A stretch of 33,150 nt of DNA from Anaerolineae bacterium (lineage in GTDB: Bacteria > Chloroflexota > Anaerolineae > JAKLPW01): the NCBI GenBank assembly GCA_022013675.1, contig JAKLPW010000273.1, positions 1 through 33,150 of the forward strand, given 5' to 3'. The stretch's first letter is position 1, and the number at the start of each line of letters is the position of its first letter. Made by a program: the position numbers and the translations under genes. Positions 4,202 through 33,150 of the stretch are shown in pieces. The notes under the pieces are model-generated. The model ran no database searches and had not been told where the DNA came from. It saw only the letters and a list, made by a program, of their open reading frames with translations.

Positions 4202-4611
4202 GGGGATGAAACGGCTTCGACAGGGAGGGCTGGGTACCGAGGGCAAGCCGAGGAGCCTCACCCTCGTTAATCAGAGGCAAAAACATAAGTGGCAAAACCA
4301 CTCAAACACCGGCGTACGCCTACGCCGTAGCTGCCTAGTCAGCTAGTAACGTAGCGTATGCTCTGGTCGCTTCGAGCGGCCACGTCCGACCCGAGTCTTC
4401 TCCAGTGGGCCGGAATCGGGCGTCATGATAGCTGGAGTGCGGTCTCTCCGATGCTCATAAGGGAGGCCTAAGGGGGAAACCCAGCATGAGCTGGCTAGGG
4501 ATTAACTCCGTCGGTCGAGGTGGTCCCTGGCGAGAATCAATAGGCCGAACAAGCTTGTAGCACATCGGTAACCGAACTTTCTGGACGCGGGTTCGACTCC
4601 CGCCATCTCCA
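4202..4611 (+). ncRNA. ssrA: Transfer-messenger RNA (tmRNA)
   Basis: The 5' end GGGGATGAAACGGCTTCGAC is the conserved tmRNA start, and the 3' end has the T-arm GGGTTCGACTCCCGCC followed by CATCTCC, which pairs with the 5' GGGGATG to close the acceptor stem (one G-U pair). The 3' CCA is not encoded: the discriminator A at 4611 is followed by CTC. The most likely tag reading frame is 4291-4335, giving GKTTQTPAYAYAVAA and a TAG stop at 4336-4338. Its hydrophobic AYAVAA end fits known degradation tags, and the resume codon would be Gly (GGC). A competing frame starting at GCA 4292 ends in a non-tag-like sequence. The RNA rescues stalled ribosomes together with the SmpB encoded just upstream. Pseudoknot-forming sequence occupies the rest but was not folded. 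Confidence 0.96.
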
Positions 4612-4621
4612 CTCTAACAAC

Positions 4622-27638: not shown

Positions 27639-28640
27639 CTATGCCTCCAGGTCCCAGTCGAAGCCCTCCTCCGGCATCATCAGATCATCGTCCAACTCGC
27701 AGGTCAGCATATCCAAGGAAGTAGTCCCAATCTCCCACTCAGCAAGAGCCTCCTCCGAGGACTCCCGAATCAGATCATCGTCGGATTCGCAGCAAGTGAA
27801 CAGTATCTCTCTGGCCTGTTCTCCCCCAATCTGACCTAGGGCCCAGATTGCTGCCCGCTGCACTTCCTCATCTCGATCCTCAACAAGTCGGCTCAAGACC
27901 GGTACTGCCGCTCTTGCCATCAGTTCGCCACAAGCCCGCGCTGCCTCAGAACGGAACCCTGGGTCATCGTTGCTCAGCTCGCTAATAACCGTGCCTCTCC
28001 AGAATATATCTGCACTGCGCCCCATGGCGAAGAGGGCACTGATGCGCATGAGACGGTTCTCATCTCCATAGGCCGCGTCAATGATCTGCCGCAGGTTATC
28101 CACACTCATGTGGGCAATGGACTCAATCGTCCGACGACGAACTCCCAGATATTCCCGAGAATTGTGCACCACAGTTGATAGTGCCTCGCTAATCGTAGCA
28201 GAGCGCTGCGCATCCAACTCTCCCATCTCAGCCAAATACGCGAAACGACCCAGCGAGATGGCGGCTGCCTCCCGCACTACTACAGAGGGATCCTCTAGCA
28301 GCATCTTAACGAGAGGCTGTACCAGTGACGGAGACTCGTCCTCCCATAAGCCCTCGACCGCGGTCCTACGCACCTCCTCGTCCTCATCGTCCAGACAGTG
28401 CTTAAAAACGGCTCCGAAGTCCATCTCGAAATTCGACTCTGCCAGCTCCACCAGCGATTGAAGAAGCTGCTGCCGCCTTTCGACGCTGGCAAGCGACCAC
28501 CACTCCATGAAGATGCGAGATTCCTCTGGCATCATGCCCGACAGTAAGTGCAAATCGCTAGGCGGCAGGGGATCAGTTTGACCAAGAGCCTTCCCCAACA
28601 ATTCCCTGAAACTCATTTCCTCTTGCGTAGGCCCAGACAT
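27639..28640 (-). CDS. HEAT-repeat protein
   Basis: This ~333-aa, strongly acidic soluble protein consists of repeated helical pairs of HEAT type. Clear repeat cores are DEDEEVRRTAVEGLWEDES (about 85-103), DPSVVVREAAAISLGRFAYL (about 116-135), DPGFRSEAARACGELMARAA and DRDEEVQRAAIWALGQIGGE (about 255-274). Such proteins act as scaffolds for other proteins. The end (LDMLTCELDDDLMMPEEGFDWDLEA, split here as two parts: LDMLTCELDDDLM and MPEEGFDWDLEA) is unusually acidic. The ATG at 28640 is preferred with GGAG close upstream; a GTG at 28670 is also possible. It follows the zinc-ribbon gene by up to 45 bases. No membrane segment. The partner is unknown. Confidence 0.82.
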   Translation of the reverse strand: MSGPTQEEMSFRELLGKALGQTDPLPPSDLHLLSGMMPEESRIFMEWWSLASVERRQQLLQSLVELAESNFEMDFGAVFKHCLDDEDEEVRRTAVEGLWEDESPSLVQPLVKMLLEDPSVVVREAAAISLGRFAYLAEMGELDAQRSATISEALSTVVHNSREYLGVRRRTIESIAHMSVDNLRQIIDAAYGDENRLMRISALFAMGRSADIFWRGTVISELSNDDPGFRSEAARACGELMARAAVPVLSRLVEDRDEEVQRAAIWALGQIGGEQAREILFTCCESDDDLIRESSEEALAEWEIGTTSLDMLTCELDDDLMMPEEGFDWDLEA

Positions 28641-28685
28641 CTCACTCCGTCCTGGTTCCTCCTCGTTCACACACGGCTATCCCTC

Positions 28686-29552
28686 TCAGTCCCAGTAGAA
28701 GACTCGCGTCTCACTAGTCGGACTCACGGAGACACCATCACGGCCACCATCCGGCTTCGCTCCCGTTTGACGCATCACTGTAACATCCCACTGAAATCCG
28801 GGTTGCCCGGGATCTGGACTACGGTGAAGCTCCTTAGGAACCCGCCATTGAAGCTCCTTCACCCACGCCCCAGAATAGTGCATTCTATCTTCTGCCCAAA
28901 AACGCAGGCTAACATCATACCACTCGTCCTCGCCCAGTGATCCAACAGCTTCCCACGACAGGATGATCTCCGTTTTGCGACCCTGAAAGCGGCTCCCGTC
29001 ATCAGGACCGCTCAACTGCGGTGCCGGTGTTGACTCTGCCGTCTCCGTAGGCAACACGAGCGTAGCCGTGTACGTGGGGACTGGTGTGCTGCTGTGCGTG
29101 GGCGAAGCAGCAAGTGTAGGAGAAGCCGTAGGCAAAGAGACAGCCGTTACCGTGGCTATCGGTGTCGGATCAGGGACAGGCGACAGTGTCTGCTCCGGCT
29201 CGCAGGTACTAGTGCTAGTGGATACAACCGTCAATCCCTTTGTTGGTTCCACGCCATCCTCCAACACCTTGGCTGACGTCAGTGTGTCCCCAATACCAGG
29301 CAGCGGCACGACCTGGACGAGCCAGTAGACCAATACACTCAGCACTATGAAGAGCACGACGGGCAGCCTCCAGTTGTACCGGATACGTAGAGCCTCACCA
29401 CACACAGGGCAGAGGTGAAGCCCCACCCGAGACTCGGCCCCGCAACAACGGCAGCGTACATACTTGCTGCCTTTCACCCCACAGCTCTCTCCACATCGAG
29501 GGCAGACTCCCGATCCCTCTGATAGTTGTTGCCCGCATGACTTACAGCGCAT
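28686..29552 (-). CDS. Double zinc-ribbon membrane protein with Thr/Pro linker
   Basis: This 288-aa protein has two zinc ribbons at its N terminus: Cys3/Cys6/Cys17/Cys20 and Cys34/Cys37/Cys48/Cys51. A membrane helix follows (about 64-82), then a long Thr/Pro/Ser-rich linker (about 105-175) and a C-terminal beta-rich domain (about 178-288) that begins LSGPDDGSRFQGRKTEIILSW. The topology suggests zinc ribbons in the cytoplasm and the rest outside. Architecture is common in Chloroflexota; function is unknown, but it may sense or scaffold at the surface. The start ATG at 29552 lacks a strong Shine-Dalgarno sequence. It lies 94 bases after the site-2 protease gene, in which nothing else is visible. 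Confidence 0.78.
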   Translation of the reverse strand: MRCKSCGQQLSEGSGVCPRCGESCGVKGSKYVRCRCCGAESRVGLHLCPVCGEALRIRYNWRLPVVLFIVLSVLVYWLVQVVPLPGIGDTLTSAKVLEDGVEPTKGLTVVSTSTSTCEPEQTLSPVPDPTPIATVTAVSLPTASPTLAASPTHSSTPVPTYTATLVLPTETAESTPAPQLSGPDDGSRFQGRKTEIILSWEAVGSLGEDEWYDVSLRFWAEDRMHYSGAWVKELQWRVPKELHRSPDPGQPGFQWDVTVMRQTGAKPDGGRDGVSVSPTSETRVFYWD

Positions 29553-29646: not shown

Positions 29647-30729
29647 TCAACGAAGGGACCAGCGAGCGAAGTCCAAGTACGAAACCATCACGAAGAGACT
29701 CAGTATTACGGCGATCCCTATGAGATGCACATATCCTTCCTTCTGGGGATCAACCCTCTTGCCTCCACGAAGCCACTCGATAACGACAAAAAGCAGTCGC
29801 CCCCCATCAAGAGCTGGGAATGGGAACAGGTTGATGAGGCCAAGGTTCACGCTGAGGATAGCCGTCAAAAGCATCAGGCGAACCACGACGTTCCCATCGC
29901 CCGAACGCGCAACCTCGCTAACGATGATCCCGATGCCAACAGGCCCCGTCAAAGCCACCGGCATCTCCTCCTCAGCCTGCAGCAAACCACGCACCATGCG
30001 CATCATTCCCTGGTAGATATCCCTCAAAGCATCCCAAGTCCGCTCGAATCCTCTCGAAACGGCTGTCCACCAAGGGTACCTGATGATATCCGTTCGGATC
30101 CAGGTAGATTCGATGCCCACGCCCATGGCCCCTTCCCCTCTTGGAGGATTGACTCGCGGCGTCAGCACTACGTTTACCTCACGGCCAGCACGATCCACTG
30201 TCATGGACATCGAGCGACCAGACCGCTCCTCCACCCAGCGGCTCAATGTATAGAAGTTGTATATTGGTTCACCTTCTACGGCCACGATAACGTCGCCGAA
30301 AGAAACGCCAGCCTCATAGGCCGGAGACTGCCCCACAACCTGAATGATCTCCAACCGCTCCACTTCCATCGGCTCACCGATGAACGACACGGCAGCAAAC
30401 AGCAGAACGGCCAATAGGACATTCATCGCTGATCCCGCCAGCAGAGCAACGACGCGGGCACCTCTGCCCTTCGAGTTGAATCCCTCTGGATCTGTGGGAT
30501 CCTCATCCCCGGGCATGCCCGCCATGCGTACGAACCCCCCAATGGGGATAGCGTTCAGGGTGTACGCGGTGTCTCCCCGCCGGAAAAGAACTGCTATACG
30601 CGGAGGGTAGCCAAACCCAAACTCATCAACTCGAATGCCTGCAAGGCGGGCCGCCACATAGTGCCCCAGCTCATGAACATAGACCAAGATACTGAATACG
30701 ACTAACGTCGAAACGATTGTCACAACCAT
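29647..30729 (-). CDS. rseP: Site-2 protease (M50 RIP zinc metalloprotease, RseP-like)
   Basis: This 360-aa membrane metalloprotease cuts membrane helices of regulators or leftover signal peptides. The active site HELGH is at residues 19-23 in the first membrane helix. A PDZ domain follows (about 115-190; GQSPAYEAGVSFGDVIVAVEG), and NLFPFPALDGGRLL (about 307-320) supplies the third zinc ligand Asp. Length and motif order match bacterial RseP. The ATG at 30729 has GAGGG about ten bases upstream and a strong promoter at 30780-30808. It heads the gene string zinc ribbon-HEAT-unknown-acyP-FecR-PHP. The frequent neighbours dxr and cdsA are not adjacent; the gene before it is an isoprenoid kinase, which hints at a distant memory of that order. 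Confidence 0.93.
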   Translation of the reverse strand: MVVTIVSTLVVFSILVYVHELGHYVAARLAGIRVDEFGFGYPPRIAVLFRRGDTAYTLNAIPIGGFVRMAGMPGDEDPTDPEGFNSKGRGARVVALLAGSAMNVLLAVLLFAAVSFIGEPMEVERLEIIQVVGQSPAYEAGVSFGDVIVAVEGEPIYNFYTLSRWVEERSGRSMSMTVDRAGREVNVVLTPRVNPPRGEGAMGVGIESTWIRTDIIRYPWWTAVSRGFERTWDALRDIYQGMMRMVRGLLQAEEEMPVALTGPVGIGIIVSEVARSGDGNVVVRLMLLTAILSVNLGLINLFPFPALDGGRLLFVVIEWLRGGKRVDPQKEGYVHLIGIAVILSLFVMVSYLDFARWSLR

Positions 30730-30903: not shown

Positions 30904-31716
30904 TCAGAAACGCACCAGGGTACCCTCGCCATCAGCTTCCCCTTTAAGAGCCGCCTCAATAGCTCCTTCTCGCATTCCAGAAATCAGCCGGATAATCAGT
31001 TGCGGCTGGTCTTCAATCAACTTGAAAAGGATCTTCACTTTACTTCGCATCCCTCCAGTCACATCAACGACACGAGAAGCTGCCAACAACCCCACCACCC
31101 GATCCACGTTAAGCGATGAAATTACCCGAATGGGAAAGGCATCCTTGTCGCATTGTGGGTCCCCAGTAAAGACACCATCAACCTCTCCCACAATGACCAT
31201 CCTATCAGGATACAGACTTCGGGCCAGGTATGCAAAAACCTGCTCCGTCGAGACAATGGCGCAGCCTTGCTCCTCATCAAGAGCCACGTCGCCGTAGACC
31301 AGCGGCACAAGTCCACGATCTAACAGCATTCTCACTGGGAGCACTGCCATCTCCAACAATTCCCCGCTTCGGCAGAGTGTCGAAGCCGAGGGTTGCACCG
31401 AAACAACTGGAACTCCTCGCCTGAGCAGCGCATCCACCACCAGACGATTGAGTCGCTGGGCCGCGGCGCTGGTGACAGCATACCCTCGCCAATCTTTCAG
31501 ATGACCCCGGTGCACGCCGTATTCTTCAGCAGCATAGTGCCCGTAGGACCCGCTGCCGTGCCCTAGTAACAGTCTCAATCTCGGACGATCTCTCAATGCT
31601 TGAGCAATCTCCAGGCTGACTCTCTCGATTACGTCCAATCTAGGAGTCTCAAGCTTGCTCTTCTCAGTGATAAGCGATCCTCCCAGTTTCAGAAACACGA
31701 GTTCACTCGACCTCAA
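30904..31716 (-). CDS. Isopentenyl phosphate kinase
   Basis: This 270-aa kinase of the amino-acid kinase fold phosphorylates isopentenyl phosphate to isopentenyl diphosphate, the last step of alternative mevalonate pathways. The N-terminal VFLKLGGSLITEK and GHGSGSYGHYAAEEYG are diagnostic; the catalytic His60 is in the second, at the same number as in the archaeal enzyme. VGEVDGVFTGDP (about 178-189) and VDVTGGMRSKV (about 216-226) are further family motifs. The start is TTG at 31716, with AAGGAGG six bases upstream, overlapping the aconitase X small-subunit gene by 14 bases. This coupling to aconitase X argues for the archaeal-type route rather than the classical one. Common in Archaea; known in some Chloroflexota. 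Confidence 0.93.
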   Translation of the reverse strand: MRSSELVFLKLGGSLITEKSKLETPRLDVIERVSLEIAQALRDRPRLRLLLGHGSGSYGHYAAEEYGVHRGHLKDWRGYAVTSAAAQRLNRLVVDALLRRGVPVVSVQPSASTLCRSGELLEMAVLPVRMLLDRGLVPLVYGDVALDEEQGCAIVSTEQVFAYLARSLYPDRMVIVGEVDGVFTGDPQCDKDAFPIRVISSLNVDRVVGLLAASRVVDVTGGMRSKVKILFKLIEDQPQLIIRLISGMREGAIEAALKGEADGEGTLVRF

Positions 31717-32086
31717 TCAGGTCCTCCTTGATCGACACCACCATACCAGTCTGTATCAAAGACACATCTACCTGATCTATCATCGGAATGCTGGCAATAA
31801 TGGCGCCCACTGTCGTTACAGCATCGCCGTTTGCATTGATGATAGCCGCAGGCGATACGCCATTCCTCGCGAGACGATAGATCGTATACGAGCCGACTGT
31901 GCTTCCTTTTCCGGTAGGAAAAACCAGTATGCGTCCGGCCACGCACTCCCCCTCCAGTGCATGGCCTTGCTCAATCACAATACCCGTTTCAGGGTCTATA
32001 CCGCCCAAGAACCCAATCGGTTCCAGCGAACTCAGGGCTACCCCTTTAGCGGAACCACTCACTAGTGCCCGCCCCCACAGTTTCAT
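31703..32086 (-). CDS. Aconitase X small (swivel) subunit; likely phosphomevalonate dehydratase small subunit
   Basis: This 127-aa protein is the DUF126/aconitase X swivel domain. It has FLGGIDPETGIVIEQGH (about 26-42) and VFPTGKGSTVGSYTIY (about 55-70), in which Ser62 is at the expected catalytic serine position; IASIPMID follows later. Together with the large subunit it forms a dehydratase. In Archaea this two-subunit enzyme converts mevalonate 5-phosphate to trans-anhydromevalonate 5-phosphate. The ATG at 32086 is chosen: it starts four bases after the large-subunit stop with GGGAG nearby. Upstream in-frame starts would overlap the large subunit. Its end overlaps isopentenyl phosphate kinase by 14 bases. 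The alternative is a cis-3-hydroxyproline dehydratase subunit; the kinase neighbour argues against it. Confidence 0.9.
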   Translation of the reverse strand: MKLWGRALVSGSAKGVALSSLEPIGFLGGIDPETGIVIEQGHALEGECVAGRILVFPTGKGSTVGSYTIYRLARNGVSPAAIINANGDAVTTVGAIIASIPMIDQVDVSLIQTGMVVSIKEDLIEVE

Positions 32087-32090
32087 CCCA

Positions 32091-33150
32091 CTACTCCCAC
32101 TTCCCTGTAGTTGCCGCCTGAATACATTGCTCCAACGATCCAAATCGTACCTGCAACCCGACGTGTGATGGGGCATAGAAAGCCATTTTCGCTGAATTCG
32201 TGGCTAGAGAGTGATAGCCGAGCATCTTCACAGGAGAGACCACCAGGCAAGTGTCCGCCACAACTTGCCCTCCAGCCGCCTCAATGTGCTCAACTAGTCC
32301 TTGACGCTCTGCTTCCTCCCGAGTATTGCGCGCTGTAGTCACCCAAAGGTCTGATGTGACTCTCCTTCCATCCAGTAACTCCCCCACCCATCTGATTTCA
32401 TCGAGCGATGCATGAGGACAACCTATTGAAACAAGGTCTATATGATTCACCGGCGAATTGAGGGCAGAGTATCCCTTCGAAAGATCATCTATCCGCATCA
32501 CCTTCGCATCCGAGGCCAGCATGTCACTCATTCGAGCCTCAGGAGTCAGGCCATCAACATGATACAATGCAACAGCTCCACTGGCAGCCATAGCCGCACC
32601 CAACAACTTGAGTCCCGATATTAATGGCTCAGGCGGTAATTCTCCGACTCCCCACGTAGTTCGTGCCCAAGGAGCATCTCTGAAACAGAAATATGGTATT
32701 CCATTAGAGACTCGTTGACCGACTAGATATCCGAGGGCACCAAAATCGGAGAGAGAGCTGACACTGCATCGCACATCAATCCTGTAGTTCGCGAGACGGT
32801 AATCGTCGAGATGCAATCCATACTCCGCTGTTCGGCCAACCATGGCAGATGCCAGAGCACTCGGCCCACCCTCTCGATTAGTACGTGCTCCCAGAACCGA
32901 GTTGGCAAAGCTAACAGCAGAGGATTCACTCCACGCCAAATGCTGTCTGAACTCCGGCACGTGGCCGGCCAAGTACGGCGTGCATGTACATGTTGGCTGG
33001 ATACCCATAGCCGTATAGACTTCCACCACCATGCGTTGCTTGTACGCGAACGACCTAGAAATACCAAGGGTTTCCCAGGCAGTCAGGTCCATGCCAGCCG
33101 GATTCAGCATAGCTGGTATGCGCACCTGGGCACCAGCATCAGCCCACTCC
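32091..33150 (-). CDS. Aconitase X large subunit (likely phosphomevalonate dehydratase), 5' end cut by window
   Basis: The reading frame is open to the right edge, so the true start is outside; the last visible residues before the edge (EWADAGAQVRIPAMLNPAG) match the inside of the family, not its beginning. About 353 residues are visible. Family motifs are TPYLAGHVPEF, AWSESSAVSFANSVLGARTN, then EGGPSALASAMVGRT and YGLHLDDYR. Three Cys sites probably hold the Fe-S cluster: CTCTPY, SIGCPHAS and DTCLVVSP. The enzyme is a dehydratase; with the small subunit and isopentenyl phosphate kinase directly downstream it most likely acts on mevalonate 5-phosphate. In some bacteria aconitase X acts on cis-3-hydroxyproline, which stays an alternative. 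A GTG at 33125 is an internal codon rather than the start. Confidence 0.9.
   Translation of the reverse strand, partial: EWADAGAQVRIPAMLNPAGMDLTAWETLGISRSFAYKQRMVVEVYTAMGIQPTCTCTPYLAGHVPEFRQHLAWSESSAVSFANSVLGARTNREGGPSALASAMVGRTAEYGLHLDDYRLANYRIDVRCSVSSLSDFGALGYLVGQRVSNGIPYFCFRDAPWARTTWGVGELPPEPLISGLKLLGAAMAASGAVALYHVDGLTPEARMSDMLASDAKVMRIDDLSKGYSALNSPVNHIDLVSIGCPHASLDEIRWVGELLDGRRVTSDLWVTTARNTREEAERQGLVEHIEAAGGQVVADTCLVVSPVKMLGYHSLATNSAKMAFYAPSHVGLQVRFGSLEQCIQAATTGKWE

Follow-up and report, generated by a model that had tools for sequence, protein, structure and literature searches.

A pair of aconitase X (AcnX) subunit genes and an isopentenyl phosphate kinase (IPK) gene at the end of an Anaerolineae contig very probably encode an archaeal-type mevalonate branch with a type IIb AcnX phosphomevalonate dehydratase (PMDh), the catalytic roles being predicted from sequence. 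The DNA analyzed (here, the window; 33,150 nucleotides) is the entire contig C209 of the MAG G000 (3.94 Mb; 526 contigs; 93% complete; 5.8% estimated contamination), and its right edge is the edge of the contig (position 33150). The named close relatives of G000 are Anaerolineae (Chloroflexota). An earlier note on this DNA had interpreted the three genes as archaeal-type mevalonate pathway genes, and that interpretation is supported by the phylogeny, by the active-site residues, and by the fact that neither DXR nor a mevalonate-type decarboxylase was found in G000. The pathway type is already known in Chloroflexota; what is added here is its class-wide spread, the exchange of two routes at a site before rseP, and the occurrence of a common operon in DPANN archaea.

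The putative PMDh large chain (AcnX-L; 32091..33149, minus strand) matched PF04412 with 392 bits over profile positions 66 to 400 of 400. It has no start codon, as its 5′ end (approximately 65 profile positions) is lost at the contig end. The small (swivel) subunit (AcnX-S; 31703..32086, minus strand; PF01989, 113 bits) and IPK (30904..31716, minus strand; TTG start; AA_kinase, 119 bits; NF040647, 183.7 bits against a cutoff of 120) follow. The two subunits are encoded by separate, tandem genes, as is characteristic of type IIb AcnX. The open reading frame coordinates agree with the claimed gap of 4 bases between the AcnX genes and overlap of 14 bases between AcnX-S and IPK. The numbering of kinase His60 and small-subunit Ser62 also proved correct on the translations, and the three large-subunit Cys sites singled out earlier correspond to C110, C283, and C342 of TkPMDh. 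The nearest solved relatives of AcnX-L and AcnX-S were chain A (E value, 1.4e-76) and chain B (1.5e-36), respectively, of the Thermococcus kodakarensis structure 7cnr. The top PDB matches of IPK were solved IPKs (7n9d, 7lnt, and 3ll9), and its His60 lies in a GSYGH motif.

In a maximum-likelihood tree of AcnX-L, 30 Anaerolineae sequences, including that of the window, formed one clade (support, 96/98). This clade joined the archaeal PMDhs (99/93), including TkPMDh, a reference that is itself termed "putative" (PMC10040528); the tree was built without the proven enzymes of A. pernix and M. mazei. Outside the combined Anaerolineae and archaeal clade were AtAcnX, four cis-3-hydroxyproline (C3LHyp) dehydratase-like Anaerolineae genes, and AcnX sequences of proteobacteria, Desulfovibrio, and Desulfofundulus. 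The phylogeny was also computed as a quick tree with more rows. Grouping with cis-3-hydroxyproline dehydratases, which the earlier note had named as an outcome that would overturn its interpretation, was not observed. As sampled, the Anaerolineae AcnX-L sequences are sister to those of the archaea.

Residues that discriminate between the two activities are known from crystal structures in which TkPMDh is bound to mevalonate 5-phosphate and AtAcnX to cis-3-hydroxyproline (PMC8184944). AcnX-S of the window carries Leu27, Ser62, Thr63, and Val64, as does TkPMDh, at positions where AtAcnX has Trp, Ser, Cys, and Thr. AcnX-L carries N79, C110, E129, S130, S131, C283, C342, K361, and Y365 (TkPMDh numbering); AtAcnX differs from PMDh in having Asn at position 131, Ser at position 283, and a second Cys after position 342. 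All of the residues testable on the contig (nine of nine in the large subunit and four of four in the small subunit) were PMDh-like. Cluster-binding Cys residues are present at sites A, 1, and 2, and there is none at site C, where the window has DTCLV and AtAcnX has DLCWC. The loop that binds the 5-phosphate (A/S-G-V-S..N; TkPMDh residues 47 to 53) falls past the contig end and was judged from relatives only; it is intact in all complete members of the Anaerolineae clade. The Asp position of the C3LHyp comparison is likewise off the contig.

That the window's AcnX is instead a C3LHyp dehydratase is exceedingly improbable. The NCBIfam model for that enzyme was the only one to match AcnX-L broadly (263 bits), but this score is far under the model's 700-bit cutoff, and the AcnX-L tree excludes such a placement. 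The C3LHyp-specific Trp35, Thr72, site-1 Ser, and second site-C Cys are replaced by PMDh residues in the window, the coupling to IPK is conserved over many families, and the separate C3LHyp-like AcnX genes of four other Anaerolineae (L248, L254, L261, and L262) branch elsewhere. Hydroxyproline dehydratase identity was rejected on the basis of tree and residues together. Current annotation models file PMDh near hydroxyproline dehydratase, which is a warning for the annotation of such genes.

The surroundings of the three genes had been described as bacterial, with ssrA among them. A bacterial tmRNA lies at 4202-4612 (plus strand; tag peptide GKTTQTPAYAYAVAA). Directly downstream of IPK is an RseP-like site-2 protease (29647..30729, minus strand), a syntenic anchor that marks the contig as Anaerolineae. 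It is followed by a zinc-ribbon-like protein (28686..29552, minus strand), for which several Anaerolineae loci have a relative in the corresponding position, and a HEAT-repeat-like protein (27639..28670, minus strand), with relatives in the same neighborhood in about ten loci; these three proteins were named by eye. An archaeal contaminant in a bacterial MAG might be considered given the 5.8% contamination estimated for G000. For contig C209, however, this is hardly conceivable: the rseP, zinc-ribbon, and HEAT genes stand in the order seen in other Anaerolineae, the tmRNA on the same contig is bacterial, and the window's AcnX-L falls inside the Anaerolineae clade, not among the archaea.

The rest of G000 was searched for the remaining steps. 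HMGR, one of the genes that the earlier note had proposed to look for, is present beside an archaeal-type HMG-CoA synthase (TIGR00748, 551 bits; cutoff, 353). These two genes are clustered on contig C227 (L229:1643-5644, minus strand) with genes for a thiolase of archaeal type and for a small DUF35-like protein; the cluster resembles the archaeal thiolase/HMG-CoA synthase complex, with the DUF35-like protein placed by eye. DXR was found neither in G000 nor in 59 relatives, and three weak DXR matches in the relatives were aspartate-semialdehyde dehydrogenases. No PF18376 match (MDD-family decarboxylase) was found in G000, so neither a complete DXP pathway nor a complete classical mevalonate pathway was detected there. 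UbiD (searched with PF01977 and a 15-row profile) and UbiX were likewise not found in this 93%-complete genome. Of three GHMP kinases found, one was a galactokinase and two resembled sugar kinases, with mevalonate kinase (MVK) scores below the cutoff; none was a clear MVK. A weak UbiD match on C333 (20.9 bits) was rejected, as it matched none of the NCBIfam UbiD models and had only a weak GSU2086 domain. A second AcnX match on C374 was subthreshold (27.9 versus 31.5 bits), and many relatives have similar weak matches. The proposal of an archaeal-type pathway in this bacterium is thus borne out for AcnX, IPK, HMGR, and HMG-CoA synthase, while its UbiD, UbiX, and mevalonate kinase components were not found in the MAG.

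The window has the order AcnXL-AcnXS-IPK-RseP and ends within AcnXL. Among relatives, UbiD-AcnXL-AcnXS-IPK-RseP occurs in G017, G028, G035, G042, and G052; MVK-UbiD-AcnXL-AcnXS-IPK is contiguous in G027, as is UbiX-UbiD-AcnXL-AcnXS-IPK in G013; and in G006, MVK-UbiD is followed after approximately 2 kb by AcnXL-AcnXS-IPK. UbiD, UbiX, and MVK are often just upstream of AcnX-L in relatives and in some are elsewhere. Given that all three lie upstream of AcnX-L in relatives and that the contig ends there, one assembly gap could explain their absence. By analogy with the gene order of relatives, the UbiD gene of G000 is most likely located immediately past position 33150, and UbiX and MVK are also predicted to be present.

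A true loss of UbiD and mevalonate kinase, with the archaeal-type dehydratase left as a relic or as the partner of another decarboxylase, would account for the lack of UbiD, UbiX, and MVK in a MAG that is 93% complete. We regard it as very unlikely, since the missing genes sit just upstream of AcnX-L in one or another of G027, G006, G013, and two archaeal loci (L040 and L041). Moreover, the AcnX and IPK reading frames are intact with conserved catalytic residues, and G000, having neither DXR nor MDD, would be left without any other known way to make isopentenyl phosphate or isopentenyl diphosphate.

In the complete archaeal-type pathway favored here, HMGR and the archaeal-type HMG-CoA synthase of G000 would supply mevalonate. 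The heterodimeric [4Fe-4S] AcnX would dehydrate mevalonate 5-phosphate to trans-anhydromevalonate 5-phosphate, with Ser62 of AcnX-S serving as the general base and the cluster, which has three Cys ligands, serving as the Lewis acid. A prenyl-FMN UbiD-family decarboxylase would then yield isopentenyl phosphate, which IPK would phosphorylate to isopentenyl diphosphate.

We surveyed 60 genomes of the class Anaerolineae (G000 and 59 relatives) representing 42 families. A strong AcnX-S match (>100 bits) was present in 32 genomes (25 of the 42 families), and 30 of these 32 also had UbiD; in G001, as in G000, AcnX was present and UbiD was not detected. HMGR was found in 57 of the 60 genomes and IPK over its cutoff in 53. 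An MDD-family decarboxylase (PF18376) was over the cutoff in 24 genomes and occurred together with AcnX in only 4, counting one MDD match just below the cutoff; this exclusivity had a Fisher P value of approximately 1e-6 without correction for relatedness. The earlier note had left open an old transfer or a lineage trait; both look true, with one clade extending over 25 of the 42 sampled families. It had also mentioned that some Chloroflexota use a phosphomevalonate decarboxylase with the same kinase, a route shown in Roseiflexus (PMC3857490).

The rseP gene follows IPK in G000 and in 13 other AcnX genomes. An MDD-family decarboxylase adjoins rseP in eight genomes (G010, G013, G019, G021, G026, G038, G045, and G054; loci L143, L144, L145, L146, L147, L154, L160, and L165); in two of these, G013 and G021, the AcnX cassette is at another place. 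The site immediately in front of rseP is held by the AcnX-IPK cassette in some genomes and by the decarboxylase in others. In other bacteria, dxr is often found at the place next to rseP. Most of the Anaerolineae decarboxylases have KYWGN where classical ones have Lys, which fits the nonclassical decarboxylase type described previously (PMC3857490 and PMC11052028). The IPKs of AcnX and MDD genomes were interleaved in a poorly resolved tree; because of this poor resolution and the lack of separation between the two kinds of genomes, cotransfer of IPK is neither proven nor excluded.

In a quick tree, the UbiDs encoded beside AcnX formed one clade with those beside archaeal AcnX. The nearest archaeal UbiDs were those of archaeon SMBSF43 and Diapherotrites. 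A longer kind of UbiD, which occurs both in genomes that have AcnX and in genomes that lack it, was distinct. The operon of archaeon SMBSF43 (L041), MVK-UbiX-UbiD-AcnXL-AcnXS-IPK, has the same genes in the same order as the Anaerolineae operons, and that of Diapherotrites (L040) is UbiX-UbiD-AcnXL-AcnXS-IPK; their UbiDs are 54 to 59% identical to the Anaerolineae reference. These DPANN operons differ in that their AcnX-L falls outside the Anaerolineae clade and no rseP was detected downstream. The UbiD comparison points to a DPANN-like relative.

The AcnX-L of G021 (L028:1907-3175; also L222) grouped with DPANN archaea and not with other Anaerolineae, and the UbiDs of G021 and of G056 (L233), a member of the same family, formed a separate branch outside the main clade. 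This pattern likely reflects a second acquisition, with the UbiD common to G056, or else contamination in G021 (8.0 Mb; 990 contigs). Taken together, a tentative scenario, which we hold to be possible though somewhat short of probable, is that the dehydratase/UbiD branch has long been a class-wide trait of Anaerolineae, that its operon, already assembled, is common to DPANN-like archaea, and that this branch was repeatedly exchanged with the decarboxylase branch at one fixed chromosomal site before rseP while the kinase was kept, with a second independent acquisition in family f22 (G021).

The dehydratase of Candidatus Promineifilum breve was reportedly confirmed in vitro, and its decarboxylase via carotenoid production. 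The archaeal pathway in this member of Chloroflexota is on record as a report (Kanno et al. 2024, AEM 90:e0110624, as represented in PMC13001223), and the likeness to G000, an archaeal-type pathway in Chloroflexota, is one of reported pathway and not of sequence. The two differ in that the G000 assembly lacks UbiD; the present survey reaches 25 families. Compared with archaeal PMDh (TkPMDh, 7cnr/7cns; ApPMDh), the window shares the two subunits, the three Cys residues, Ser62, Thr63, Val64, Leu27, Glu-Ser-Ser, Lys, and Tyr; here, the host is bacterial and the Anaerolineae sequences form their own clade. The route through mevalonate phosphate decarboxylase and IPK in Roseiflexus castenholzii (Dellas et al. 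2013; PMC3857490) has the same start, mevalonate 5-phosphate, and the same last enzyme, IPK, but a single ATP-dependent decarboxylase, whose gene is absent from G000, replaces the dehydratase and UbiD. As late as 2023, the archaeal mevalonate route was called unique to archaea (PMC10040528); the subsequent bacterial report concerned one uncultured species. In a search that left most subscription journals outside its range, we found no paper describing the spread of the route through the class, its exclusivity, or the swap at the rseP site. Because the route is present in approximately half of the sampled class, mostly to the exclusion of a second route that uses the same chromosomal site, it becomes possible to test how isoprenoid pathways arose and were exchanged: which branch is ancestral, whether the operon passed from DPANN archaea to Anaerolineae or the other way, and why a route that saves ATP and relies on an iron-sulfur enzyme is kept or replaced.

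Several variations in gene content and arrangement were observed among the Anaerolineae. Eight genomes with AcnX and UbiD (G006, G007, G017, G027, G035, G042, G052, and G055; several >95% complete) had no UbiX over the TIGR00421 cutoff. In many, the small subunit is with IPK and the large subunit is elsewhere (L201, L202, L210, L212, L214, L215, L217, and L226). G034 encodes a single-chain AcnX (large domain and then small domain; 617 amino acids) directly after an AMPD-clade UbiD (L230:6276-8126, plus strand). This protein has a PMDh-like SGVS loop and a GTGSSV motif, in a genome with HMGR, IPK, and UbiX and without MDD, and may represent a natural fusion of the two phosphomevalonate dehydratase subunits.
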